From: a virus
Length of the DNA stretch: 29,483 bases
Reading direction: 5' to 3' (one strand)
Virus record (IMG/VR): IMGVR_UViG_3300014838_000062
Location: 1-29,483 of that record
The first letter of the stretch is position 1, and each line of letters starts with the position of its first letter. The notes beneath the pieces were generated by a model. The model was not told the origin of the DNA, did not search any database, and saw only the letters and a program-made list of their open reading frames with translations. This document shows positions 5,424-20,493 of the stretch, piece by piece. Made by a program: the position numbers and the translations under genes.

Positions 5424-5642
5424 ATGGAAGTAACCAAATCAAGAATGTTTCAGTATGTAGTATTACTACATCCAACAGAAAAAGAAGTTAAGGATAATGC
5501 AGCTAAGTCTACTATCCTTACAGATGTAACCTCTATACTAGCTAAGGATGAGAAGTCTGCAGCTATGCAGGCTACTATGGGTATTGATCCTAAGTATAAA
5601 GACCAACTAGATCAGGTGGAGGTGGTTGTACGCCCTTTTTAG
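5424..5642 (+). CDS. Small conserved phage protein ending VRPF; zero-frame product of a frameshift gene
   Basis: A 72-residue protein starting MEVTKSRMFQYVVLLHPTE. I prefer the ATG at 5424 to an in-frame ATG at 5346 because 5346 lies inside the previous gene and 5424 has the ACCAACAAGCA leader. The pattern of N-terminal beta strands (FQYVVLLH), a central ILAKDEKSAA segment and a terminal VEVVVRPF resembles small phage proteins with a conserved LAKD...(V/I)RxF layout, of unknown role. The stop is TAG, rare here. It directly follows the heptamer CCCTTTT, after which the -1 frame stays open to 5839. Confidence 0.65.
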   Translation: MEVTKSRMFQYVVLLHPTEKEVKDNAAKSTILTDVTSILAKDEKSAAMQATMGIDPKYKDQLDQVEVVVRPF

Positions 5643-5670
5643 GTGACCTGATCTCAAGAGAGAATCAGGT
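5633..5670 (+). promoter_or_regulatory. Programmed -1 ribosomal frameshift signal (candidate)
   Basis: The heptamer CCCTTTT at 5633-5639 has the X XXY YYZ phase required for simultaneous -1 slippage: zero-frame codons are CGC CCT TTT TAG, so the stop occupies the next A site. After a 6-nt spacer, a hairpin at 5646-5670 forms: ACCTGAT pairs with ATCAGGT and CTC with GAG, around an AAGA loop with one bulged A at 5663. No T run follows, so it is not a terminator. In addition AGATCAGGT at 5609-5617 is fully complementary to ACCTGATCT at 5646-5654, a competing pairing that a translating ribosome would open. Confidence 0.65.
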
Positions 5671-5839
5671 ACATACTTCACACCATATTGTAGATAATAC
5701 AAGGATAAGAACTCCTTGGAATGATAATGTACTTACTACTAATACTAATAACTGGGGAACTACTAATAGTATATTTACTATGGGTTCTGCAGGAACTGCT
5801 ACTAGTTATAGTGCACTATCACTAAGTGGAAATAATTAA
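5639..5839 (+). CDS. Frameshift extension (66 residues) fused to the 5424 protein
   Basis: In the -1 frame relative to the 5424 gene, reading continues from TTA at 5639 as LGDLISRENQVH and so on to TAA at 5837-5839. Slippage at 5633-5639 would give a 138-residue fusion. The stretch is Ser-, Thr-, Asn- and Gly-rich, in line with virion surface proteins in this window. No ATG, GTG or TTG lies in this frame between the preceding stop at 5597 and the frameshift site; the only ATG is 18 codons from the end, so independent translation is unlikely. The alternative is a degraded gene that lost its start or a single-base sequencing error in the T run. Confidence 0.5.
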   Translation, partial: LGDLISRENQVHTSHHIVDNTRIRTPWNDNVLTTNTNNWGTTNSIFTMGSAGTATSYSALSLSGNN

Positions 5840-5854
5840 ATAAGCTAGACCAAC

Positions 5855-6223
5855 ATGCCAATAGTAAATCAAGTAGAAAAGAAGGTGAGGATGGACCAGT
5901 GGAACATAGTTAAGTTCCAACTAGCTGTTCACTGTCATCTGAATAACATTATAGTATCTGATCTGGATCTAAGTTGTCTTACTCTCCTGGCATTAACAGG
6001 AGAGAAGACACTTGGTGAATTCTGTGAAGAAGCAGCTAACCATAATATCTTTGGATGTTCTCAGTCAGTTAGAAATGCTATAACTAAGGCTGAGAAGAGA
6101 AATCTAGTTATTAAGAAAGGTAATAATAAGAAGAAACTCTCTCTTAATATTCCTAATATAGAGACTAAGGGTAATATACTTCTTGACTATAAAATTCTTA
6201 GAGTTGAAACACAGGTCTCATAA
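5855..6223 (+). CDS. Helix-turn-helix-like protein
   Basis: A 122-residue protein starting MPIVNQVEKKVRMDQWNIVKFQL. It is predicted mostly helical in residues 12-90. A segment around 70-95 (SVRNAITKAEKRNLVIKKG) has the recognition-helix-plus-wing pattern of winged-helix proteins, followed by a short basic wing (GNNKKK) and a beta-like end. I infer a DNA-binding regulatory or architectural protein, in keeping with the IHF-like gene that overlaps its 3' end. No family is recognised with confidence. Confidence 0.55.
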   Translation: MPIVNQVEKKVRMDQWNIVKFQLAVHCHLNNIIVSDLDLSCLTLLALTGEKTLGEFCEEAANHNIFGCSQSVRNAITKAEKRNLVIKKGNNKKKLSLNIPNIETKGNILLDYKILRVETQVS

Positions 6224-6602
6224 AGAGCTTATATCTAAGACTGCCTCAGATTTAAGCCTACCTGAGGAGATGGTTAGTGATCTTGTAGAAGCTTACTGGA
6301 AAGCTTTTAAAATAGAGATGAGAACTTTTAAATATCCCAGATTAAAGATTATTAACCTAGGAGACTTTCACATAAGTCCTAGGGGATTAGCTAAAAATAT
6401 AAAAGTCCTTACTAGCTGGAAAGAAAGTTCTAATGTACCTAAAACATTTGGAAGAATGGTAAGATACCAGGAAGGTCAGGAGAAGTTAAAATTATTACTT
6501 GAACTTAGTAAGAAACTTGAAGAAGAAGACAAAAAGTTCCAACTAAAACTTAAAAAGAGATATGGAGAGCAGTATAATAAGAATCTGGAAAAACAAAGGT
6601 AA
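6183..6602 (+). CDS. IHF/HU-like DNA-bending protein
   Basis: A 139-residue protein with the IHF/HU plan: an N-terminal helix pair (SHKELISKTASDLSLPEEMV, residues 12-31), a helix through EAYWKAFKIEM, then the LKIINLGDFHISP strand that corresponds to the GFGtF region of HU proteins. The C-terminal 50 residues form a charged helix rather than the usual HU arm. IHF subunit genes are a known part of crAss-like genomes near the terminase. No ATG is available before the fold; TTG at 6183 or, more likely, TTG at 6204 (MKHRSHKEL) is the start, inside the 3' end of the previous gene. This suggests coupled translation. Likely role: DNA compaction or packaging. Confidence 0.7.
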   Translation: MTIKFLELKHRSHKELISKTASDLSLPEEMVSDLVEAYWKAFKIEMRTFKYPRLKIINLGDFHISPRGLAKNIKVLTSWKESSNVPKTFGRMVRYQEGQEKLKLLLELSKKLEEEDKKFQLKLKKRYGEQYNKNLEKQR

Positions 6603-6909
6603 GATCCTTGAAGGTATCAAGAATAGTATCTTTACTTCTCAACATGTAGAGGAGATTGCAGAACTTAGAAATCTTATATGCCAAGAGTGTCCTCATATAG
6701 ATAAGAGAGGAAGTATGTGTGCTATGCCTGGGACACAACCATGTTGTAAACTTTGTGGTTGTAATCTCAAATTGAAACACAGATCTCTATCTAGTTCTTG
6801 TGATGATGGTAGGTGGCATGCTGAACTTACTCAGCAGGAAGAAGATGCCCTAGCTGATCAACTAAAAAATAAGTCAAATGATACTAACATTCAAGGAGAA
6901 GAATCATGA
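6562..6909 (+). CDS. Cys-rich zinc-ribbon-like protein
   Basis: A 115-residue protein with a Cys cluster between residues 40 and 80: CQECP, then SMC, then CCKLCGC, and a further SSSCDDGRWH. The CxxC...CxxC spacing suggests one or two bound zinc ions. Residues 1-35 are helical and basic. It overlaps the IHF-like gene upstream by 41 nt and the nuclease gene downstream by 32 nt, so the three are expressed together. A nucleic-acid-binding role is plausible. Small zinc proteins at this position are conserved in crAss-like phages as I recall them, with no known function. Confidence 0.6.
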   Translation: MESSIIRIWKNKGKILEGIKNSIFTSQHVEEIAELRNLICQECPHIDKRGSMCAMPGTQPCCKLCGCNLKLKHRSLSSSCDDGRWHAELTQQEEDALADQLKNKSNDTNIQGEES

Positions 6910-8704
6910 GTATAAAAGTCTTGATGAAGATCTAGACTGGCTTTCTGTAACTAGTTTTGTTAGTTATTTTAAACAACCTTTTGATCCTATTGAACAAGCT
7001 CAAAGATCTTCTAGAAATAAAAGATCTAAATGGTATGGAATGGATCCTATGGAAATACAGTATTACTGGAAAGCGGAAGGTGATAGAGCTTCTCTAATGG
7101 GTACCTGGTATCATTCCCAGAGAGAGAAAGATATTATGGAGTTTACTTCTATAGAAAGAAATGGAGTTACAGTTCCTATTATAAGACCTATCTATAAAGA
7201 AGATATTAAAATAGCTCCTGTACAAATTATTACTAATGGGGTTTATCCTGAGCATTTTGTTTACTTAAAATCAGCAGGACTATGTGGACAATCAGATAGA
7301 GTAGAAGTAGTAAATCACTCAGTGTCTATAAGTGATTATAAAGGATTAGATATAAATACTCCAATTCCAACAAGTGATGGATTTAAGTCTATGAATGATA
7401 TAATTGTTGGTGATAGAATATTTGATGGAAATGGAGAATTAACTACTGTAGATCATATATCAGATATTCATTATAATCCGTGTTATAAAATAACTTTTGA
7501 TACAAATGATCATCTCATATGTGATCATGAGCATAAGTGGGTAATAGCAGAAAGAAAATCCAAGAATGTATATATTGAAACAGAAAGAACAACAACTGAT
7601 ATTTATACTTCTTACCTAAATAAAGAATATATTAGAATTAAATGTTCATTAAGTTTGAATATTAAGGATAAAGAATTATTAATTGATCCTTATGTATTAG
7701 GCGTATGGTTAGGTGATGGATCAAGCAGTACAGGTCATCTTACTAATATGAATGAGCAAATATGGAAAGAAATAGAGAATAGGGGTTATATAATAGGAAG
7801 AGATACTTCTAATGGAGGAAGTGGAAAAGCTCAAGGAAGAACTATATTTGGACTGAGAGCAAAATTAAAAAAATTAAATCTACTTAATAATAAACATATA
7901 CCAGATATTTATATAAGATCATCACATCAACAACGACTTGACCTACTTAGAGGATTCATGGATACAGACGGTTATTATAATAGATCAAGAAATAGGTGTG
8001 TAATGGCAACTACTAAGTTATGGCAGGCAGAAGCAATAATGTCTTTGGTATCTAGTCTAGGAGGTAAACCTACTCTACTAAAAACAATAGTATCTGGATT
8101 TGGAAAAATTAATATTCCAGCTTATAATGTAACATTTAAAAGTATAGTAGAAAATCCATTCCTGTGTAGGAATAAGGACTACTTAATGGCTGCTACAGGA
8201 CATAATGAAAAAGCTATCTATAGATATATTAAAAAAATCGAAAGAGTAAATACAGTACCTACTAAATGCCTATCAGTTGATAGTTCTACTCATACCTATT
8301 TAGCAGGACCATCTTATATAAAAACTCATAATACAAATAAAGAACTAAGGCTTACTGGCTATACTAACTGGGAAGGAGTAACTACTATGATGAACTATCC
8401 AGTTGATCATCTTCCAGACTGTCACCTTACTCATTATGCTCTACAGTTAAGTTTGTATCTTTATATGATTTTAAAACATAATCATGAGCTAAGTCCAGGA
8501 AAACTATCTATAGAACATGTAATCTTTGAGGAAGAAGCTAAAGATGAACATGGATATCCTGTATATAAGAAAGATGCTCTAGGTAACTTTATAGTAAAAG
8601 AAGTAAAAGTATATGAAGTACCCTTTTATAAAACAGAGGTTATATCAATGATAAATTATCTAAGGGATAATAGAGACCTAATTAAAGCTAAGAAAAAACC
8701 ATGA
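6878..8704 (+). CDS. PD-(D/E)XK nuclease (RecB/Cas4-like) interrupted by a class 3 intein
   Basis: The 608-residue precursor splits into a 278-residue nuclease and a 330-residue intein. The nuclease opens with FKEKNHEYKSLDEDLDWLSV. It then shows GTWYHSQRE (RecB-type His motif), GQSDRVE with D140, and SISDYK with D153 and K155. After the intein it resumes at TNKELRL and continues with YALQLSLYLYMI, the QxxxY motif of RecB-family nucleases. Joined, the core reads SDYKTNKEL, a typical active-site strand. The intein thus separates the catalytic D-x-K from the following Thr, so the enzyme should be inactive until spliced. The ATG at 6878 overlaps the previous gene by 32 nt, and its stop overlaps the next start (ATGA). 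Likely role: phage DNA processing near packaging. Confidence 0.85.
   Translation: MILTFKEKNHEYKSLDEDLDWLSVTSFVSYFKQPFDPIEQAQRSSRNKRSKWYGMDPMEIQYYWKAEGDRASLMGTWYHSQREKDIMEFTSIERNGVTVPIIRPIYKEDIKIAPVQIITNGVYPEHFVYLKSAGLCGQSDRVEVVNHSVSISDYKGLDINTPIPTSDGFKSMNDIIVGDRIFDGNGELTTVDHISDIHYNPCYKITFDTNDHLICDHEHKWVIAERKSKNVYIETERTTTDIYTSYLNKEYIRIKCSLSLNIKDKELLIDPYVLGVWLGDGSSSTGHLTNMNEQIWKEIENRGYIIGRDTSNGGSGKAQGRTIFGLRAKLKKLNLLNNKHIPDIYIRSSHQQRLDLLRGFMDTDGYYNRSRNRCVMATTKLWQAEAIMSLVSSLGGKPTLLKTIVSGFGKINIPAYNVTFKSIVENPFLCRNKDYLMAATGHNEKAIYRYIKKIERVNTVPTKCLSVDSSTHTYLAGPSYIKTHNTNKELRLTGYTNWEGVTTMMNYPVDHLPDCHLTHYALQLSLYLYMILKHNHELSPGKLSIEHVIFEEEAKDEHGYPVYKKDALGNFIVKEVKVYEVPFYKTEVISMINYLRDNRDLIKAKKKP
7343..8332 (+). 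mobile_element. Class 3 intein with LAGLIDADG endonuclease (nuclease gene)
   Basis: Residues 156-485 of the precursor. Residue 1 is Gly (GLDINTPIPT), so the usual N-terminal Cys or Ser is absent. The Trp-Cys-Thr set of class 3 inteins is present: HKW in block B (His64, Trp66), CLSVDSSTHTYLAG in block F (Cys309) and KTHN at the C-terminus (Thr328, His329, Asn330), with Thr as the +1 residue. The insert carries a two-motif LAGLIDADG endonuclease: VLGVWLGDG near intein residue 118-126 and LLRGFMDTDG near 201-210, both with acidic catalytic positions. The element should splice itself out and be capable of homing. Confidence 0.85.
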
Positions 8705-9219
8705 TTGTAAATCTCTTTGATATAGAAAATGGAGTTGTTATACCTAGTATGCATGTATATACTCTTAAGACTTTAAAAAATATAATAGATGATTACCCTA
8801 CTAATTATATGAAAGTTTATGAGTATGTATTTTATATGACCTGTCCAGATCCTGATATGAATCCATTCTTTCATTATCCTGAGGAAGATAAAGAGCATAC
8901 TATTCTAAAAGAAATACAAGCTGATTTTTCTACAGAAGATACCAAAATTATAGATGCAATATCTTTCTGTAAAAAACTTTATGAGACACCAACAGCAAGA
9001 GCTTACTGGGGAATAAAAGCTATGCTGGATAAGCTAGCTACTTATATGAGTAATACTTCTATTTCTGCAGGTAGAGATGGTAATGGGCCTTTCTTATTAA
9101 GTGCAGCTAAACAGTTCCAGGATATAAGAGAGTCTTTTAAGGGAGCCTATAAAGATCTTATGGATGAGCAGAAGACTACTACAAGAGGGGGTGCTCATAC
9201 CGCATACGATGCTAAGTGA
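8701..9219 (+). CDS. Conserved crAss-like protein next to terminase (possible small terminase subunit)
   Basis: A 172-residue protein starting MIVNLFDIENGVVIPSMHVYTL. It has an alpha/beta N-terminus with aromatic-rich segments (YEYVFYMTCPDPDMNPFFHYP) and a helical C-terminal half (ISFCKKLYE...ARAYWGIKAMLDKLA) followed by a polar, probably flexible tail. It overlaps the nuclease by 4 nt and the terminase by 4 nt (AAGTGAGTG), so stoichiometric translation is likely. Position just before the large terminase is where many phages encode the small subunit, but I see no clear HTH and the assignment is only a guess from context. Confidence 0.6.
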   Translation: MIVNLFDIENGVVIPSMHVYTLKTLKNIIDDYPTNYMKVYEYVFYMTCPDPDMNPFFHYPEEDKEHTILKEIQADFSTEDTKIIDAISFCKKLYETPTARAYWGIKAMLDKLATYMSNTSISAGRDGNGPFLLSAAKQFQDIRESFKGAYKDLMDEQKTTTRGGAHTAYDAK

Positions 9220-12200
9220 GTGAAGATAGCTACATAACTATTCCAGTATGGGATAAAGGTATTTGGACTCATCAGTCCTTTAAAACTATTGAAGACTTTA
9301 GATGGTTTTTAATTCCCCTACTAAAAGAACCAGGAAAGTACAATTTTGATGAGACATCCAGGATCTTTAATGAGCAAGCTAGAATATGGAATAAAACAAA
9401 AGTATACTGCATAGCTCCCTTTAATAGTAAAGATTATATTACTTACTGGGATGATCAAAAGGAGAGATGTAGATTTGGAGTAATCTTTAAGAGTGAAAAA
9501 GATCTCTGGTATATACCAAGAGATTACTACATGTGGTTGAACTTCTTACCTATTTATGATAAAGAGCAAGCTAGGTATGATTTTCCAAAAGTTAGGGATG
9601 CACAGTATCATATGGCACTCTATGAACACTTAGCAGAGTTACACTATTTACATGTTGCAGTTCTAAAGAAAAGACAGATAGCTTCTGAACAACCTCATTC
9701 AGAACCAATTCTTACAATAGATGGATGGAGAACCATGGGAGATATTGAGATAGGAGATCTATTATGGAATCCAGATGGTACTCTAACAAAGGTCTTAAAT
9801 AAAACTAATAATGGAGTTTCTGAAGTTTACCAATTTGACTTTATAGATGGTAGATCAACTAGATGTGGAATAGATCATAATTGGCTAGTATATGATAGAG
9901 TTCTTAAAAAAGAAAAAGTAATAAATACAAGAGAGTTATTAAAGTTTGGATTATTTAGTTATACAAATGCACCAACTAGATCAGGAAAAAAGGAATATAA
10001 GTCATATAGATATGCCATAAAATATACTAATCCAATAAGCTTTCTTGGAAGTTCTAAGTTAGAAATAAACCCTTATCTACTAGGTTGCTTAATTGGAGAT
10101 GGTAGTATTAAGGGAAATACTGTACAAATAACATCTATGGATATTGAATTAGTAAATTATGTAAAAGATATAGTAGGTTCTGATTATAATGTAATTAGAA
10201 ACTTTACAAAGGGTAAAGCATCAAGGTATGGGATTACTTATAAAAAGAGATTTTCTAAAGAGTGTAAGAAGTATTATAATGGTCAATATGGTTGTAATCC
10301 TATTTCCAGGTCTCTTTTAGAAATAGGATTAAAGAATAAAATTTGTACAGATAAATTTATTCCCCAAGTATATTTAGAATCTACTATTCAAGATAGACTG
10401 GACTTACTTAGAGGATTGATGGATACAGATGGTTATATAAATAGTACAGGAAAAGATATTCATTACACTACTGTTAGTGAACAACTAGCCAAAGATGTAG
10501 CTTATTTAACTAGAAGCTTAAGTATTAAAACAGTAATAGATAAAAAATCAAAAGCTAAGAGTAGTTATAGTGACTACTATAGAGTGCGATTATCTGGACA
10601 TATTCCTTTTAATATTTTTAAACTCACTAGAAAAGCTAATAGATTTAAGAAAAGAAAAGATAGTTTTCCTTTATGTCCTATTATAAATATCACAAAACTA
10701 GACTATTTAGAAGAATCCTCTTGTATAGTAGTAGACAATCCTAATCAATTATATATTACTAAAGATTTTATAGTTACTCATAATAGTTACTTTCATGCTG
10801 CTAAACTTATTAACCAGATCTGGTTTGAAGAAGGACCTACTATGAAAATGGGTGCTTCTCACAAAGACTATATTAATGAGAAGGGAACCTGGAAGTTTCT
10901 AAATGAGTATAGAAGCTTCCTAGATGAGCACACTGCCTGGTATAGACCTATGAATCCAGGAAAAGTAATGATGTGGCAACAGCAGATAGAAATAACCAAG
11001 AGTAATAGAAAGTCACTTAAAGGTAATAAAGGAACTATACAAGGACTAACATTTGATAAAGATGCAACTAATGGTGTAGGTGGACCAGTAAAATACTTCT
11101 TTCATGAGGAAGCTGGAATAGCACCTAAGATGGATACTACCTATGAGTTCTTATTACCTTCTGTAAAGTCTGGACATATTACAACTGGTATGTTCATTGC
11201 AGCAGGATCTGTAGGAGATTTAGATCAATGTGAACCTCTTAAGAAATTTATATTGTATCCTGAGGTAAATTCTATCTATGCAGTAGAGACAGATCTTCTA
11301 GATGATAAGGGTACAATAGGAACAGCTGGACTCTTTATACCAGAGCAGTGGTCCATGCCTCCTTATATAGATCAGTATGGTAATTCTCTAGTAGAAGAAG
11401 CTGTTAAAGCTATAGATGAGGAAAGACTAAAGTGGAAGAAAGAATTAACTCCTGATATTTATCAACTTAGAATATCGCAACATCCTAAGAATATTGCTGA
11501 AGCATTTGCCTTTAGAAAAGCATCTGTATTTCCTACTAATCTATTAATGGCTCAGCAAAGAAGGATCCAGGAGAAAGAATATGGCTATGAGTTTCTAGAA
11601 CTAGATTATGATACTAAAGGTAAAGTAGAATCTAAGTCGTCCAATAGACTTCCTATTAATGAGTTTCCTATATCCTCTAAGACAGAAGATAAGAAGGGAG
11701 TTCTAGTAGTTTGGGAAAGACCAGTTCCTGATCCGGACTTTGGAATGTATTATGCATCTATAGATCCAGTGAGTGAGGGAAGGACAACTACGAGTGACTC
11801 TCTTGTATCTATTATAGTATATAAAAACCCAGTAGAAGTAACTAAGATAACTCCAGATGGTCCAGAGACTTCTATAGAAAGAGACAAGATAGTAGCTACC
11901 TGGTGTGGTAGATATGATGATATTAAACACACTCATGAGAAGCTAGAAAAGATAGTAGAGTGGTATAATGCATGGACAGTAGTAGAAAATAACATCTCTC
12001 TATTTATTCAGCATATGATCTCTAAGAAAAAACAAAGATATCTAGTACCTAAGAACCAGATGTTATTCTTAAAGGACATAGGATCTAATACTAATGTTTT
12101 TCAAGAATATGGCTGGAAAAACACAGGTACTCTCTTTAAGTCTCACTTATTAAGTTATGCTATTGAGTTCCTCAAAGAAGAGTTAGATATAGCAACTAAG

Positions 12201-12518
12201 CCAGATGGAACTATAGTAAAAACCACATATGGCGTAGAGAGAATCCCAGATCCTATGCTAATAGTAGAAATGCTAGCTTATGAAGAGGGACTTAACGTAG
12301 ATAGATTAGTTTCTTTTTGTGCACTTGTAGCTTTTGCTAAAGTTCAGCAGGCAAACAGAGGCTTAAGAAAAAGAGTAATAGAAAGTAAGGAAAACTTGCA
12401 AAAGAACAAAGATCTTTATAAATTGTCCAAGGGAATGTTTACTCATATGGGAGTTCATTCTAAGAAGACAGATCCTATGTATAAGATTAACAGGAGTCCT
12501 TTTAAGAATATTAAATAA
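9216..12518 (+). CDS. terL: Large terminase subunit, interrupted by a class 3 intein
   Basis: ATP-driven DNA packaging motor and headful nuclease. The 1100-residue precursor comprises N-extein 1-157, intein about 158-523 and C-extein 524-1100, giving a mature protein near 734 residues. Motifs: LKKRQIAS joined to SYFHAAKL forms the deviant Walker A loop; YFFHEEAG (E631, E632) is the Walker B strand; YYASIDP (D850), VVENN (E924) and VDRLVSF (D1029) are the three acidic positions of the RNase H-like nuclease domain. The start codon is GTG at 9216 (GTGAGTGAAGAT), overlapping the previous gene by 4 nt. Packaging function depends on intein removal because the insert lies inside the ATP-binding loop. 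Confidence 0.92.
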   Translation: MSEDSYITIPVWDKGIWTHQSFKTIEDFRWFLIPLLKEPGKYNFDETSRIFNEQARIWNKTKVYCIAPFNSKDYITYWDDQKERCRFGVIFKSEKDLWYIPRDYYMWLNFLPIYDKEQARYDFPKVRDAQYHMALYEHLAELHYLHVAVLKKRQIASEQPHSEPILTIDGWRTMGDIEIGDLLWNPDGTLTKVLNKTNNGVSEVYQFDFIDGRSTRCGIDHNWLVYDRVLKKEKVINTRELLKFGLFSYTNAPTRSGKKEYKSYRYAIKYTNPISFLGSSKLEINPYLLGCLIGDGSIKGNTVQITSMDIELVNYVKDIVGSDYNVIRNFTKGKASRYGITYKKRFSKECKKYYNGQYGCNPISRSLLEIGLKNKICTDKFIPQVYLESTIQDRLDLLRGLMDTDGYINSTGKDIHYTTVSEQLAKDVAYLTRSLSIKTVIDKKSKAKSSYSDYYRVRLSGHIPFNIFKLTRKANRFKKRKDSFPLCPIINITKLDYLEESSCIVVDNPNQLYITKDFIVTHNSYFHAAKLINQIWFEEGPTMKMGASHKDYINEKGTWKFLNEYRSFLDEHTAWYRPMNPGKVMMWQQQIEITKSNRKSLKGNKGTIQGLTFDKDATNGVGGPVKYFFHEEAGIAPKMDTTYEFLLPSVKSGHITTGMFIAAGSVGDLDQCEPLKKFILYPEVNSIYAVETDLLDDKGTIGTAGLFIPEQWSMPPYIDQYGNSLVEEAVKAIDEERLKWKKELTPDIYQLRISQHPKNIAEAFAFRKASVFPTNLLMAQQRRIQEKEYGYEFLELDYDTKGKVESKSSNRLPINEFPISSKTEDKKGVLVVWERPVPDPDFGMYYASIDPVSEGRTTTSDSLVSIIVYKNPVEVTKITPDGPETSIERDKIVATWCGRYDDIKHTHEKLEKIVEWYNAWTVVENNISLFIQHMISKKKQRYLVPKNQMLFLKDIGSNTNVFQEYGWKNTGTLFKSHLLSYAIEFLKEELDIATKPDGTIVKTTYGVERIPDPMLIVEMLAYEEGLNVDRLVSFCALVAFAKVQQANRGLRKRVIESKENLQKNKDLYKLSKGMFTHMGVHSKKTDPMYKINRSPFKNIK
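9687..10784 (+). mobile_element. Class 3 intein with LAGLIDADG endonuclease (terminase gene)
   Basis: About 366 residues. Aligned with the nuclease-gene intein, residue 1 is Glu (EQPHSEPILTIDGW); a Ser1 start at 9684 is the alternative. The class 3 Trp-Cys-Thr set is present: DHNW in block B (His64, Trp66, the same numbering as in the other intein), CIVVDNPNQLYIT in block F (Cys346) and VTHN at the end (Thr364), with Ser at +1. LAGLIDADG motifs are LLGCLIGDG and LLRGLMDTDG. The two inteins share layout but differ widely in sequence between motifs, so they are relatives rather than a recent duplication. Confidence 0.82.
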
Positions 12519-12523
12519 TCAAT

Positions 12524-12952
12524 ATGGAACTAATACCAGATAAAGATGATCACTTTCATATGGAAGATATTGAAAGAAGGATTAAAGAATTACAAAAAGA
12601 ACATGGGCTATTTATACCTAGAATAGTAGAACTATTAGATCCTGAGAATATTACTAAGGGAATAAACGGGTCTAAGTTTAGAATTAAACTAGATGATCCG
12701 ACATTTAGTTATGGTGATGTTATCACTTATGATAAGTATCATGGTGCTGAGATGTATGTAACAATAGATCCTATTATAGATACAGGAGATGGATTTGTAT
12801 ATACAGTTCAATTAGTAAATAATCCTGATCATAAGTTTATAGATAACAAATACATTCAAGATGGTACATGGATAATGAGAAAAGGACCCCTAGCTACGGG
12901 ACCTGATAGTTATAGTAAGAGAGAACCAATAGTAATAAAACAAGCCATCTAA
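12524..12952 (+). CDS. Stand-alone paralog of a major-capsid-protein domain
   Basis: A 142-residue protein. Residues 34-121 align with residues 90-177 of the major capsid protein encoded at 17942; by hand I count about 49 identities in 88 positions, including DKY.G.EMYVT, GDGF.YTVQLVNN and the final RKG. Upstream it has a different, charged helical N-terminus (MEDIERRIKELQKEHGLF), and downstream only about 20 residues. The capsid segment that it copies follows the N-terminal arm and probably forms part of the E-loop or an inserted domain. It might act as a minor capsid, vertex, portal-adaptor or assembly factor. It lies 6 nt after the terminase gene and just before the portal region. Confidence 0.75.
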   Translation: MELIPDKDDHFHMEDIERRIKELQKEHGLFIPRIVELLDPENITKGINGSKFRIKLDDPTFSYGDVITYDKYHGAEMYVTIDPIIDTGDGFVYTVQLVNNPDHKFIDNKYIQDGTWIMRKGPLATGPDSYSKREPIVIKQAI

Positions 12953-13287
12953 TGGCATATGTATACAGGCATATTAGGTTAGACAAGAATGAGCCTTTCT
13001 ATATTGGAATAGGTTCAGAAGAATTCAAAAAATATTTATCAGAAATTAACTCTGGATCTAAACATCCTAGATATGGTAAGTCAGTATCTCAAGAGACAAG
13101 AGATAGGTTATCAGTAGCTATTAGTAAAGCTTATAATCCAAGATCTAGAAAAGTTATAGATACCAGTACTGGTAAACAATATAAGTGTATCTTAGATGCA
13201 GTACAAGATAGTATATACCAATATGGTACACTATATAGGAAATTAATGGGAACTACAGTAAATAACACTACCTTTAAGTTAACTTAA
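12952..13287 (+). CDS. Degenerate GIY-YIG homing protein with NUMOD repeats
   Basis: A 111-residue protein. Residues 1-22 (YVYRHIRL...PFYIGIG) match the start of a GIY-YIG nuclease domain, but the catalytic Arg and Glu region is missing. Residues 33-55 (KHPRYGKSVSQETRDRLS) match NUMOD3, and residues 64-99 (KVIDTSTGKQYKCILDA...) match NUMOD1. It therefore keeps DNA-binding modules and has lost most of the nuclease core, presumably by internal deletion. It overlaps the previous stop (TAATGG) and ends 10 nt before the portal start. It may be the relic of the endonuclease that once mobilised the adjacent intron. Confidence 0.75.
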   Translation: MAYVYRHIRLDKNEPFYIGIGSEEFKKYLSEINSGSKHPRYGKSVSQETRDRLSVAISKAYNPRSRKVIDTSTGKQYKCILDAVQDSIYQYGTLYRKLMGTTVNNTTFKLT

Positions 13288-13297
13288 ATTATAAACT

Positions 13298-16200
13298 ATG
13301 GAAGTATTTAATGCTATGCAGATGGTCAAAGGGGCTAAATCTGATGGTAATCGTTTAGGTGAATAACTTGCCGTTCTAGCTAGTAATATCTAGAAGTATA
13401 ATTGGACAAAAACGGGGAAGGCTGTAATGCCAATCCCGTGCTAATACTACAAATTACGTAAGGTTGTAGTACAGTGTAGAGCATAGTAGGTGAATAAATA
13501 TAATCCTACCAAGAGTGTCCAACATCCTTATAGGATGAAAATATATGCCGAGCTTGTAAGAAATAAAATTACAAGAATCAAGGGATAAAAAGCCTTTGAG
13601 ATAACAAGACTGACGTTAATACAGCCCATCCAATTCATACCTAGAGAGAAGAAAGATGAGCAGTGGGTAGCGTGGAATATTGATTGGCAAGAATGGCAAG
13701 GACTTAAACAGCTTAGGAGAAATGCCAGAAGGCTAATGAAGAACTATAAGTTAGCTAAGGGCATTATAGACAAGACTGACTATGTAGTAGAAGAAAACAA
13801 TGAGTATGCCTCCCTAATAGAGACTCTTACTAAAGAAGACTCAGGAGCCCTGGAGTTAAAGTTTTATCCTATTATTCCTAATGTTATCAATACAATGGTA
13901 GCTGAGTTTGCTAAGAGATCATCCTGTATGAACTTTAGAACAGTAGATGAGACCTCTTATAATGAAGAACTTGAGCTTAAAAGACAACAACTAGAAGATG
14001 CTTTAATATCTGATGCAGAAAATAGACTAGCTATTAAGCTTCAAGAGTCAGGTGCAGACCCTAACTCTCCAGAGTTTAAACAACAGATGGATCCTCAGAA
14101 TATTAAATCTCTACCTGAGATACAGGAGTTCTTTACTAAGTCTTATAGAAATGTCCCAGAAGAATGGGCTCAGCATCAGTATAAGGTTGACCAGGAGAGG
14201 TTTGGAATGGAAGAGCTTGAGGAAAGAGGTTTTAGAGATAGCTTAATTACAGACAGAGAGTTCTGGCATTTTAAGATGATGGAGGATGACTATGAAGTAG
14301 AACTCTGGAATCCAGTATTAACTTTCTATCATAAGTCTCCTGAGACAAGATATATCTCCCAAGGTAATGCTGTGGGTAAGATAGAAATGATGACAGTAGC
14401 TGATGTTATAGATAAGTATGGCTGGATTATGACAGAGGATCAACTTAAATCTCTTGAAGCTATTTATCCAGTAAGATCTGCAGGGATGGCAGTACAGGGT
14501 TTCCAGAATGATGGAAGTTACTATGACCCAACTAGATCTCATGAATGGAATACTAATATGCCATCACTAGGATGGAGACAGTATGCTTCTATGTGGGATA
14601 ATATGCAGGTAGGAGGAGACATAGTAAACTGGATTACAAGTGAGTCAGAAGATTACTTTGATCTAGGAACTACTTATTTACTAAGAGTAACTACTGCTTA
14701 TTGGAAGTCTCAGCGTAAGGTAGGACATCTAACTAAAATAGATGAGAATGGTTCAGCTACTCAGAATATTGTAGATGAATCTTATGATGTAACAGATAAG
14801 CCTGAGTATAATACTATACTAATTAAACGCAAGGATAAGTATAATCTAGTCTTTGGTGAGCACATTGACTGGATCTGGATTAATGAAACAATGGGTGGAG
14901 TAAAAGTAGGACCTAATAGACCTAGCTTCTGGGGTATGCCTAACTCAGGTGGAGTAACACCGATGTATTTAGGTATTAATAAAAATACTCCAGGTAGAGT
15001 TCCTTTTCAATTTAAAGGAGATGATAATCTATATGGCTGTAAACTTCCAGTAGAAGGATCTGTCTTCTCAGATAGAAATACAAGATCTACTGCTTTAGTA
15101 GATTTAATGAAACCTTATCAAATAGGATTTAATATAGTTAATAATCAGATAGCTGATATTCTAATAGATGAGCTAGGTACAGTTATCATGCTTGATCAGA
15201 ATGCTCTTCCAAGACATTCTTTAGGAGAAGACTGGGGAAAGAATAATATGGCTAAAGCATATGTAGCCATGAAAACATTTCAGATGTTACCCTTAGATAC
15301 TTCTATTACTAATACAGAGAATGCTATATCTAATACCCATTTCCAGAAACTAGATATGGAGCAGACTAATAGACTTCTATCTAGGATTAAGTTAGGTGAG
15401 TATTTTAAACAACAAGCATTTGAAACTATAGGAATTACCCCACAGAGAATGGGAGCACAGCTTGAGCAGGCAACTGCAACTGGTGCTAATATTGCAATAG
15501 CAACTTCTTATGCACAGACAGAGATGTATTTCATACAACATTCTGATTACTTAATGCCAAGAGTACATCAGATGAGAACAGACCTAGCACAGTACTATCA
15601 GAGTAAAGCTCCCTCCAAGAGACTTCAGTATATCACTACTATGGATGAGAGAAAGAACTTTGAGATTAATGGTACTGACTTAATGCTAAGAGATATCAAT
15701 GTATTCCCAGTAACAGGAGCTAATGTAAGAAATATAGTTGATCAACTTAAACAACTTGCTCTTAAGAGTAATAGTAATGGCACATCTATCTATGATCTTG
15801 CTAGTATTATTAAGTCTGATAACCTTGCTGACATAGATCAGATATTAAAAGACACTGTAGAGAAGCAAGAGAAGCAAAGACAGGATGAACAGCAGCATGA
15901 AGCTGATCTACAGAAGCAACAACAAGATGCAGAGTTACAGAAGCAGAGAGAAGCAGATGCATTTAAAGCAGACCAGAATGAGAAAGATAGACAGTCTCAT
16001 ATCCTGGAAGCTGAAATTAGAGCTGCAGGATATATGGGTATGAAGGACTTCAATGATAATAAACAGTCTGATTATCTTGATGGACTTAAGACTATTCAAC
16101 AAGGTCAACTTTATCAAGGTCAGATGTCTATAGCACAACAGAAGGCTGACCATGCAGAGCAAGCTCACCAGGACAAGATGGACCTGGGAAGAGAGAAGCT

Positions 16201-16336
16201 TATTGCAGAAAAGGATAGAGCTGATAAGAATGTTCTAATTGCCAGAACTAATACTACAGCATCTGAGATAGCTGCTAAGAGGAAACATGAGCTGGATAAG
16301 AAGAAGTTAAGCATTTCTAAGAAGAAGAAAAAGTAG
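13298..16336 (+). CDS. Portal protein, split by a group I intron
   Basis: Exon 1 is 13298-13360 and exon 2 is 13625-16336; joined they encode about 924 residues. Exon 1 begins MEVFNAMQMVKGAKSDGN; the junction reads RLG then PIQFIPREKK, in frame. Without splicing, exon 1 stops at TAA 13364. Exon 2 continues with QWVAWNIDWQEWQGL and NYKLAKGIIDKTDY, the conserved N-terminal pattern of crAss-like portals, so the ATG at 13736 is internal. The body is a large alpha/beta portal. The last 180 residues are a highly charged Gln/Glu/Lys coiled-coil tail ending KKKKK. Role: the dodecameric ring through which DNA is packaged. The gene follows the terminase and precedes the scaffold-like protein. Confidence 0.88.
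13361..13624 (+). ncRNA. Group IA self-splicing intron (264 nt) in the portal gene
   Basis: The 5' site follows U13360 and the 3' end is G13624. Helices I can draw: P1 13358-13362/13368-13372 with a U-G pair at the splice site; P2 13374-13379/13390-13395; P3 13402-13407/13517-13522; P4 13412-13416/13435-13439; P5 13420-13422/13429-13431; P6 13445-13452/13464-13471; P7 13481-13485/13544-13548; a P7.1/7.2 hairpin 13486-13490/13505-13509; P8 13523-13527/13533-13537; P9-type hairpins 13553-13559/13569-13575 and 13580-13583/13593-13596. The AATCCCGTGCTAA element and the AUAUAUGCC P7 strand match the T4 td-type core. No endonuclease gene lies inside it. Confidence 0.88.
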
Positions 16337-17941: not shown

Positions 17942-19558
17942 ATGAGCACTCCAGTATTAAATAATGGCATATTCCTCAGGGACACTAGCTACCAAGCTAC
18001 CTCTCATGTGGATTCTTACCATTTGGTAAACATGTTAAAAACAGCTGAGCCTATGGATTTAGGTCCTGTAGATATTTGGGCAATGGCACAGAAAGTAGAA
18101 ATGCCCCTTTATCAACTATCTTCTTTTGGTGGTAAAAATATCATCATGGTAGATAATGCAAGAGGAGAATACAAATGGCAAACACCAGTTGTACAAGATC
18201 TTCCTTATATTATTGAAGACATCCAACCAGGTAATGCTACCAAAGGTATAGATGGTACTACCTTCCAGATCAAGATTAACAAACGTGAGTTTGGTCATGG
18301 CGATATCCTCACTTATGATAAATATAATGGTGTGGAAATGTATGTAACAGCAGATGATATCATGACTATTGGTGATGGTTTTATCTATACTGTGCAACTA
18401 GTAAATAATGATAACTACAAATATCTAGATAATAAGTTTCTTGCTGGTGGTACCAGGGTATTCAGAAAAGGTTCTGCAAGAGGTGAATATGGAGAAAGGT
18501 TCTCTGATATTAGGACTTCTACAGGATTTAGGGAATTCTATAACTATGTAGGTGGTGCTGAAGCTCACGTTCATTATAGTATTTCTTCCAGGGCTGATCT
18601 TATGATCAAAGGTGGAGTAAACATGGATGGTACAGTTCCTGTAACTGAAATCTGGAGGACATTTGATAAGAATATTGATCCTTCTATTACTTCTTTAGAG
18701 AACATGATTACAGTCATGGGTAAAGAATATGTAAAGAATGCCATTGCAAATGGTAATCTTAACAGGACTTTCTTAACTACTCTTGAAGCAGCTCACCTTT
18801 CTAAAATTGCTACTGACATTGAAACCTACTTGATGTGGGGACATGGTGGTAAGATTAAACAAGATGGTCCAGATGATATGAGGTTATCTGTAGGGTTATG
18901 GAAACAACTTGATTCTTCTTTCAAACGTGTATATAACTACTCAGGATTTAGCTTAGATTTATTTAAAGCTGAGATCTATAACTTCTATGCTGGTAAAGTT
19001 GAATTCCAAGGTCCAGATCCTAAGAGATCTCTGATAGTTCAAACTGGTATTGGAGGTATGAAGCTTGTTAATGAAGCTATTAAGACTGAAGCTGTTAACT
19101 CAGGTTTAGTAATTAATGCTGCTCAGGTAGGTGCTATTACAGGCCAGGGTATGGATTTGAATTATGGATTTGCTTACACTAGCTATGTAATTCCTTTCTT
19201 AGCTAATGTTAAGTTTATCTTAAATCCTGCATTTGATAACTTACATACAAATGATATTGAAAATCCTATTATCAATGGAAGACCTTTATCATCTTATAGC
19301 TTTGTGATCTTTGACGTTACTGACACAGGTAATGATAATATCTTCTTATTGAAACTATCCTGGGATAACCAACTTAAATGGTTCTACCAGAATGGTACTA
19401 TGGATTACATGGGAAGAACACAAGGTTTTCAATCAAATGGTAACTTTAATGGTTATAGAGTTTATATGACTCAAACAATGCCAGCTATCTGGGTAAAAGA
19501 TCCAACCAAAGTACTAAAAATTGTTATGCGTAATCCCATTACTGGTGGAAGTTTCTGA
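17942..19558 (+). CDS. Major capsid protein (HK97 fold, crAss-like)
   Basis: A 538-residue protein in the position after portal and scaffold. It has the N-terminal arm (MSTPVLNNGIFLRDTSYQAT), an aromatic segment VDIWAMAQKVEMPLYQL, and the GEYKWQTP...DILTYDKYNGVEMYVT region. The GSARGEYGERFSDI element and a long C-terminal P-domain follow (ISSRADLMIKGGVN, PIINGRPLSSYSFVIFD, TQTMPAIWVKDPTK). This matches crAss-like major capsid proteins as I know them. Residues 90-177 are duplicated in the stand-alone gene at 12524. Arg is coded by CGT several times here, unlike most genes in the window that use AGA, which fits high expression. Confidence 0.88.
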   Translation: MSTPVLNNGIFLRDTSYQATSHVDSYHLVNMLKTAEPMDLGPVDIWAMAQKVEMPLYQLSSFGGKNIIMVDNARGEYKWQTPVVQDLPYIIEDIQPGNATKGIDGTTFQIKINKREFGHGDILTYDKYNGVEMYVTADDIMTIGDGFIYTVQLVNNDNYKYLDNKFLAGGTRVFRKGSARGEYGERFSDIRTSTGFREFYNYVGGAEAHVHYSISSRADLMIKGGVNMDGTVPVTEIWRTFDKNIDPSITSLENMITVMGKEYVKNAIANGNLNRTFLTTLEAAHLSKIATDIETYLMWGHGGKIKQDGPDDMRLSVGLWKQLDSSFKRVYNYSGFSLDLFKAEIYNFYAGKVEFQGPDPKRSLIVQTGIGGMKLVNEAIKTEAVNSGLVINAAQVGAITGQGMDLNYGFAYTSYVIPFLANVKFILNPAFDNLHTNDIENPIINGRPLSSYSFVIFDVTDTGNDNIFLLKLSWDNQLKWFYQNGTMDYMGRTQGFQSNGNFNGYRVYMTQTMPAIWVKDPTKVLKIVMRNPITGGSF

Positions 19559-19629: not shown

Positions 19630-20493
19630 ATGGAAAAGAAGAAAAGAATTTACAAACACAGAGCTTATCAAGCAGTAGCTAATCTTACTAAGATCAGTGA
19701 AGAACAAAAGAATAAAGTAAAAGAGTTATATACCCAGGGATCTTCTCAGTCTTACATAGAGAAGACTCTGGGAATGACTAGAAAAACTATCAGGACCATT
19801 CTTAAAGCAGAAGGTATTGATAGAGATAAGTCTTCACAGTGGAGACTTAGATATGGTAGTTCTTTGAAAGAAAATGTATTTGATGAATTGAATCCAGAAT
19901 CTTTATATTGGATTGGATTTCTTTATGCAGATGGTCATGTTAGAAAAGATAAAGAGTATTCTATAGAACTAGAAATAGAACTGCAGGATAAATCACATCT
20001 AGAGAAATATAAGACATTTCTAGAATGCAATAAAGAAGTTAAACAATATGAAGAAAATAGTGTTTGTTTAAAAATATTCTCTAAAGTGATTCACTCTAGA
20101 TTAAAAGAACTAGGTTTTGATAATAGAAAGAGTTGGACAGCAATTCCTCATCCTCTATTAAAAGAATCTAGAGATTTCTGGAGAGGAGTAATAGATGGAG
20201 ATGGTGGAGTATATGATTATAAAACAAAAATGGTAAGTTTATGTGGAACATTAGAAACCATTTTTGAGTTTATAATCTTTTGTAGTGAACAACTAGGGAT
20301 AAAAGAAAAGTATCCCAGTCATAGTAACAAAAAAGGATATGCTACTAGTACATTATATCAAGTACATTATTATGGAGAAGATTCTAAAAAAGTCTTACAT
20401 TTACTCTACAAAGATTCAGTTACATATCTTGAGAGAAAGTATCAAAAATATTTAAACATAGTAGAAACTAATAATCAAACAATACTAAACTAA
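19630..20493 (+). CDS. Free-standing LAGLIDADG homing endonuclease
   Basis: A 287-residue protein. Residues 18-60 form a HTH of the resolvase/sigma type (KISEEQKNKVKELYTQGSSQ...TRKTIRTILKAEGI). The two LAGLIDADG motifs are LYWIGFLYADGHV (about 95-107) and FWRGVIDGDGGVY (about 178-190), each with its acidic catalytic residue intact. No splicing blocks are present, so it is not an intein. It lies between the capsid and head-fiber genes. It probably cuts a homologous site in competing phages and drives co-inheritance of the capsid region. A hairpin directly before the start (19604-19628) suggests restricted expression. Confidence 0.88.
   Translation: MEKKKRIYKHRAYQAVANLTKISEEQKNKVKELYTQGSSQSYIEKTLGMTRKTIRTILKAEGIDRDKSSQWRLRYGSSLKENVFDELNPESLYWIGFLYADGHVRKDKEYSIELEIELQDKSHLEKYKTFLECNKEVKQYEENSVCLKIFSKVIHSRLKELGFDNRKSWTAIPHPLLKESRDFWRGVIDGDGGVYDYKTKMVSLCGTLETIFEFIIFCSEQLGIKEKYPSHSNKKGYATSTLYQVHYYGEDSKKVLHLLYKDSVTYLERKYQKYLNIVETNNQTILN

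Follow-up and report, generated by a model that had tools for sequence, protein, structure and literature searches.

Why should a small phage gene end on a slippery heptamer, with a stop codon directly behind it and a second frame lying open beneath both? The question arises in the window, as we call the whole stretch of DNA analysed here, 29,483 nucleotides of the IMG/VR virus record IMGVR_UViG_3300014838_000062. On its plus strand, to which the gene and its signals belong, the zero frame runs from ATG 5424 to the TAG at 5640-5642 (5424-5642) and specifies a 72-amino acid protein, MEVTKSRMFQYVVLLHP...QLDQVEVVVRPF, with VVVRPF as its last residues. The codons at the gene end read CGC CCT TTT TAG, and the heptamer C_CCT_TTT (5633-5639) stands there in the correct phase for a -1 slip, adjoining the stop. 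No stop interrupts the -1 frame between 5600 and a TAA at 5837-5839, which gives 66 codons past the slip (5639-5836); the long product would read ...VVVRPF-LGDLISRENQV...SLSGNN, its tail with the stop codon occupying 5639-5839. The initial annotation had proposed a programmed -1 frameshift cassette here, with CCCTTTT in the right phase directly before TAG, and on direct reading of the window all of its coordinates and sequence claims for the cassette proved correct. Is the arrangement a coincidence, an error, or a working signal? From the comparison with relatives described below, we hold it very likely that this small phage gene ends in a programmed -1 ribosomal frameshift cassette, and the gene almost certainly makes two proteins.

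The phage itself had been placed among the crAss-like phages, and this placement holds. The portal gene (13736-16336) matches crAss-like phages, the best matches being Leptolyngbya phage Lbo-JY46 and csAssE-Sib, and the 29.5-kb record contains PHROGs matches to terminase, portal and major head. Its nearest relatives by portal, L005 and L045 (77%), have the flanking genes in common with the window and lack the frameshift gene; L045 carries thymidylate-synthase-like and amidase-like genes, assigned by reading the sequence, at that position. Because these two phages keep the flanking genes without it, we class the frameshift gene as an accessory gene, and its role as dispensable. The closest relative in gene order around the frameshift gene is L101 (3575-7171), in which genes like those at 5855-6909 of the window follow.

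How widely is the gene distributed? DNA and protein searches returned no homolog from isolated phages. Among 50,697 phage records the only homolog belongs to one 735-kb metagenomic phage genome present as two records, LR756501 and LR756503 (47% identical, E 4e-13); it ends CGC CCT TTT TAA, its -1 frame is open for 190 codons, and its tail contains collagen-like GTSGTSG repeats that match tail-fibre families. A DNA pattern for the gene end led to about 46 further homologs. For the counts given below, homologs were gathered by two amino-acid patterns derived from an alignment, with codon choice left free; since one of the two patterns contains VRPF, the amino acids at the gene end were partly selected, and the codons were not. 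These patterns recovered 68 viral contigs and two bacterial-bin contigs, and removal of near-duplicates left 61 non-redundant sequences, the window included. They fall into 27 clusters at 60% N-domain identity, range from 27 to 67% in GC content, and are about 28-56% identical to the window in the N-domain. Searches of PHROGs, NCBIfam and Pfam with 58 members gave no significant match, nor did a search of PDB sequences with the domain. A weak full-length match in the crAss-like contig L051 was dropped, as the family HMM did not recover it. Two further proteins, in L098 (5298-5485) and L125 (654-907), end in VRPF at a CCCTTTT-type site, and their -1 frame is open; the family HMM scores L098 marginally (E 0.008) and L125 not at all, and both are possibly remote or convergent cases.

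The genes next to the family members differ between phages (GroEL, a sigma factor, RecT-like, RusA-like, DNA polymerase, methylase, terminase and lysis-type genes, with names partly assigned by reading the sequences), and for this reason genomic context gives no function. In the near-identical phage contigs L184, L185 and L186, the frameshift gene follows the end of a GroEL chaperonin gene after about 20 nt. Judged by these sequences, it is an accessory gene common to very diverse uncultured phages.

Do the relatives preserve the slip site itself? An X_XXY_YYZ heptamer in phase just before the zero-frame stop is present in the window and in 50 of the 61 members, where it takes the form CCCTTTY (CCCTTTT in 29, CCCTTTC in 21). 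The proline codon at the slip is CCT in 58/58, with 14.4 expected from each locus's own codon use, the preceding arginine codon is CGC in 51/59 (expected 12.7 +/- 3.0), and the stop is TAG in 47/61 against 11.6 expected, counts that come from related rather than independent members, albeit from many clusters. Only 3 of the 31 ORFs of the window end in TAG. In L172, glycine replaces proline and a perfect heptamer is kept as G_GGT_TTT, a covarying site, and in L156 the heptamer lies one codon ahead of the stop. The 11 members without a perfect C_CCT_TTY heptamer have, for example, T_CCT_TTT, G_CCT_TTT or C_TCT_TTT; because a U still precedes UUY in them, they could slip through the Phe tRNA alone, in a less canonical manner. 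CCCUUUU is known to work as a slip site, since West Nile virus, a eukaryotic and unrelated virus, reportedly uses the same heptamer, C_CCU_UUU (PMC11507841).

Could the two frames be a single ORF whose T run was misread or misassembled, or one that a genuine frameshift mutation has turned into a pseudogene? Five T are error-prone, and the window comes from a single metagenomic contig. Yet the same arrangement recurs in 61 non-redundant sequences from many samples, 21 of them with CCCTTTC, and the -1 tail keeps a conserved motif. Resequencing that revealed another T-run length had been named as grounds for doubt; dozens of independent contigs, the GC-rich CCCTTTC members included, exclude such an error, and we give this explanation practically no credence. 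The same members bear on slippage by the polymerase. The five T of CCCTTTTT could slip during transcription and yield mRNAs with one base more or less, making ribosomal slippage superfluous. In GC-rich members, however, only TTT stands between C and C, and with only three T both homopolymer error and transcriptional slippage are excluded there; the selection of CCT and CGC, the downstream structure and the Shine-Dalgarno-like pairing are, moreover, ribosomal signals. Transcriptional slippage is thus extremely unlikely.

Some crAss-like phages use genetic code 15, in which TAG is recoded. Might the TAG at 5640 simply be read through to extend the protein, given that the stop is of the very kind that crAss-like relatives can recode? 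The zero frame continues GTG ACC TGA, only two codons before the next stop, and readthrough is refuted by this TGA. TAG also terminates other genes of the window, and relatives have TAA or TGA at the position in question, leaving a vanishingly small chance for readthrough.

A stable hairpin with a 10-bp stem and a 6-nt spacer had been reported downstream of the heptamer, and folding bears it out. The stem at 5646-5655/5660-5670 (hairpin 5646-5670) has 10 bp with one bulged A, the spacer covers 5640-5645, and the minimum free energy fold adds a pairing of 5642-5645 with 5681-5684. At -15.9 kcal/mol the 51-nt fold has z = -3.3, and only one of 200 shuffles folds equally well. Across the family, 50-nt windows folded against dinucleotide shuffles give one clear peak, in the 50 nt that immediately follow the slip site (mean z -1.43 +/- 0.22), and values farther away are near 0. 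Hairpins with spacers of 5-8 nt are evident in many members, individually in L157, L177, L182, L190, L197 and L201; downstream structure is weak in some, such as L101, L194, L205 and L214. The initial annotation had also described a second, mutually exclusive pairing that spans the slip site (5609-5617 with 5646-5654; 5609-5654) and could act as a switch. The two segments are indeed exactly complementary in the window, but a regulatory function does not gain support from the family, where the signal is weak (-11.8 versus -10.7 kcal/mol for swapped partners, a comparison uncontrolled for composition).

Upstream of the heptamer lies a feature missed in that first reading, the Shine-Dalgarno-like stretch AGGTGGAGGTGG (5614-5625), a candidate upstream stimulator; 10 nt separate the end of its GGAGG from the heptamer. 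Family-wide, pairing with the anti-Shine-Dalgarno sequence is strongest 6-10 nt ahead of the slip site, and a conserved glutamate within the stretch is encoded by GAG in 39/57 members against 25.1 expected; some AT-rich members lack the element. The E. coli dnaX gene has a Shine-Dalgarno-like element 10 nt upstream of its heptamer, and it resembles the window in the succession of this element, slip site and downstream stem-loop. It is, however, another gene, with A_AAA_AAG in place of C_CCU_UUY, and the slip described here occurs directly at the stop codon.

Is the -1 frame a coding sequence in its own right? Relatives with stops throughout this frame had been named as the observation that would speak against a frameshift. 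Instead, the relatives keep it open, with a median length of 70 codons versus 12 in the +1 frame (61 members), and they share a conserved motif near its C-terminus. Local codon use favours the -1 frame in 45/58 loci, and where tails can be aligned, differences are commonest at -1 frame third positions. An unsupervised Gibbs search of the tails found the motif [SA]T[SY]Y[NTS]A[AS][SQ][LIV], mostly 9-18 residues from the C-terminus, with an information content of 15.05 bits versus 8.5-9.0 in shuffled tails. In the window it is represented by ATSYSALSL (5798-5824), 13 residues from the C-terminus of the -1 tail, with a leave-one-out score of 17.0. By the same leave-one-out procedure, 53/61 tails score >8 near the C-terminus and 0/61 do so in each other frame, a control that is not wholly even, as stops in those frames depress scores. 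Among the other ORFs of the loci, 2/1062 score >9 near the C-terminus, and one of these two exceeds the lowest score of a true motif.

The tails otherwise diverge rapidly. The N-domains of L147 and L148/L149 are one residue apart, while their -1 tails are almost unrelated (~35% identical for L147/L148) apart from the first few residues and the end motif; the tails may have been exchanged or have changed very fast. On such comparisons, the tail is hypervariable except at its two ends, and the family includes collagen-like and Ser/Thr/Asn/Ala/Gly-rich tails, with a fixed end peptide.

A conserved -1 reading frame could also belong to a separate gene, reached from its own start or by termination-reinitiation, next to which the slippery sequence would be a coincidence. 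The -1 frame does overlap the zero frame at the stop codon, several tails have early GTG, TTG or ATG codons, many members have one within the first 30 tail codons, and separate initiation may operate in such members. That the -1 frame has no start of its own, as first claimed, is true of the window up to an ATG 46 codons past the stop, which is its first ATG, GTG or TTG; the 66 open codons stand as described. The tails of L160 and L193, by contrast, contain no start codon anywhere. Neither the constraint on CGC-CCT-TTY-TAG nor the structure peak has a role in a model of independent initiation, and in L206-L208 a tail of this kind is joined to the domain in the zero frame. We therefore regard a separate gene as very improbable, and return to the programmed frameshift.

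L206-L208 have the same domain up to ...VVVRPF, followed by a zero-frame tail; their sites read CCT_TTT_GAA or CCT_TTT_GAC, and the tails contain SSSYTPMSI or STYTSLSNL. The tail of L207 contains collagen-like G-x-y repeats. Since C_CCT_TTT_GA puts TGA in the -1 frame, a -1 slip in these members would stop at once, so that shifted and unshifted products would be swapped with no change in the pair of proteins made. For dnaX as well, a swap between a long form read in frame and one made by shifting is known (PMC5009743). The contig of L165 carries two tandem paralogs without a slip site (L226, 320-1010), one short, ending in IVVRAL, and one long, with an in-frame C-terminal extension. In-frame fusions and a phage with both short and long paralogs suggest that selection keeps the pair of products.

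How would the two proteins arise? Most ribosomes would stop at TAG 5640 and release the folded 72-residue domain ending in VRPF. A fraction would pause at this codon, held by the downstream hairpin and probably aided by the upstream Shine-Dalgarno-like stretch, with slow termination at UAG adding to the pause. The Pro(CCU) and Phe(UUU) tRNAs would slip to CCC and UUU, and a further 66 or so residues would be translated from the -1 frame, forming a mostly disordered, fast-evolving tail ending in a conserved SYxAxSL-like peptide. Relatives down to about 30% identity in the zero-frame domain keep heptamer, structure and open -1 frame. Family-wide codon, structure and motif statistics argue against chance. 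Conserved slip codons, structure, an open -1 frame, a -1-encoded motif and in-frame fusion relatives thus speak for the shift by comparison; the proportion of ribosomes that shift and the stimulation ascribed to each element are our inferences.

The phage frameshifts known so far come mostly from cultured phages, in genes for tail assembly chaperones, capsids or tail tubes. Does the present gene belong to one of these groups? C-terminal parts added by frameshifting are known in phage proteins of T3, A2, Listeria phages and lambda (G-T) (PMC5009743). The capsid systems of T7/T3 (gene 10A/10B), Lactobacillus phage A2 and Listeria A118/A500 likewise have a frameshift close to the gene end that adds a C-terminal extension, so that a short major product is joined by a long minor one, and related phages have in-frame versions of the extension, as L206-L208 do here (PMC5009743). 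In contrast to capsid and tail-tube systems, the base protein here is an undescribed domain of ~70 residues, with no family match and only weak fold matches, and is probably neither a capsid nor a tail-tube protein, and the tail is predicted to be disordered (L207) rather than an Ig-like domain. The lambda G/G-T tail assembly chaperone (Xu et al. 2004, cited in PMC5009743 and PMC4276943) resembles our gene in that a small phage gene has, close to its end, an XXXYYYZ site for a -1 slip and gives short and long products, and in its conservation across unrelated phages; phage 9g has the site CCCUUUUUUU for its tail assembly chaperone gene (PMC4276943). Unlike in lambda, no tape measure gene or long tape-measure-like ORF follows in the window, the neighbours vary among relatives, copies adjoin replication, GroEL, sigma-factor or lysis-type genes, and the long form ends in a conserved peptide of its own. 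None of the 58 members searched against PHROGs, NCBIfam and Pfam matched a tail assembly chaperone family significantly. We found no description of the gene family, its spread or its -1-encoded end peptide in the literature. As the signal for slipping and the tail hidden behind it are both preserved in relatives from many unrelated uncultured phages, these genes appear to form a frameshift family not described before, separate from those known.

What might the two products do? AlphaFold2 models the 72-residue protein of the window with a pLDDT of 86 as beta-beta-alpha-alpha-beta, the domain ending at the VRPF strand; in the in-frame fusion of L207 the domain reaches a pLDDT of about 95, and the tail is disordered, mostly under 60. 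The slip thus lies at a domain boundary, for the predicted domain ends at VRPF and the tail is predicted to be disordered. Foldseek gave no significant fold match. VIA-align rows for eL20, PurS and PaaB (Z 5-7) and for the phicrAss001 unique-vertex chain 7qoh_h (Z 4.5) were set aside as within the chance range. The likeliest function, we infer, is that the short form serves as a major oligomeric subunit and the long form as a minor one. Because the tails are collagen-like or Ser/Thr/Asn/Ala/Gly-rich, with a fixed end peptide, they suggest a minor long form whose C-terminal peptide and flexible tail would tether it to a partner, either while the virion is assembled or on the finished particle; such a role is plausible, though we put it at somewhat less than even. 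Many copies lie in replication or recombination regions, which makes a role during infection an alternative.

The frameshift could be real and serve a regulatory or degradative purpose, for example if the tail destabilised the product, instead of making a structural minor form. A tail that is predicted to be disordered and is hypervariable, as between L147 and L148 (about 35% identical), would suit such a purpose, and some copies reside in replication and recombination modules. The C-terminal peptide, however, is unlike any obvious degradation tag, the collagen-like G-x-y tails of LR756501 and L207 match tail-fibre families, and in-frame long forms exist. We consider a regulatory or degradative purpose rather unlikely, although clearly a more serious contender than any of the explanations that dispense with the frameshift. 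For a structural minor form, we tentatively suggest a broader picture, itself doubtful: a mobile family in crAss-like, huge and many other uncultured phages, unseen in isolates, in which minority subunits made by frameshifting would carry an exchangeable, hypervariable tail with a conserved docking peptide. The family would serve as a general adaptor module, its tail diversifying while base domain and end peptide stay fixed.

The comparative evidence for frameshifting is strong across genomes of 27% to 67% GC, all from uncultured phages. Annotation pipelines will have recognised the short ORF alone, or else mistaken a piece of the tail for a gene of its own. The conserved C-terminal peptide provides a direct handle for finding the partner.

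Elsewhere in the window, a 142-residue ORF at 12524-12952 contains a stretch much like part of the major head protein (17942-19558), YGDVITYDKYHGAEMYVTIDPI.TGDGFVYTVQLVNN compared with HGDILTYDKYNGVEMYVTADDI.TIGDGFIYTVQLVNN in the latter; a capsid gene fragment seems to have been duplicated upstream of the portal. The terminase large subunit (9216-12518) and an upstream ORF (6878-8704) both look intein-interrupted, with homing endonuclease parts, and the insert in the terminase ORF has PHROGs matches to helicase-loader and primase families and also to terminases. Free-standing homing-endonuclease-like ORFs lie among the structural genes at 19630-20493 and 12952-13287.
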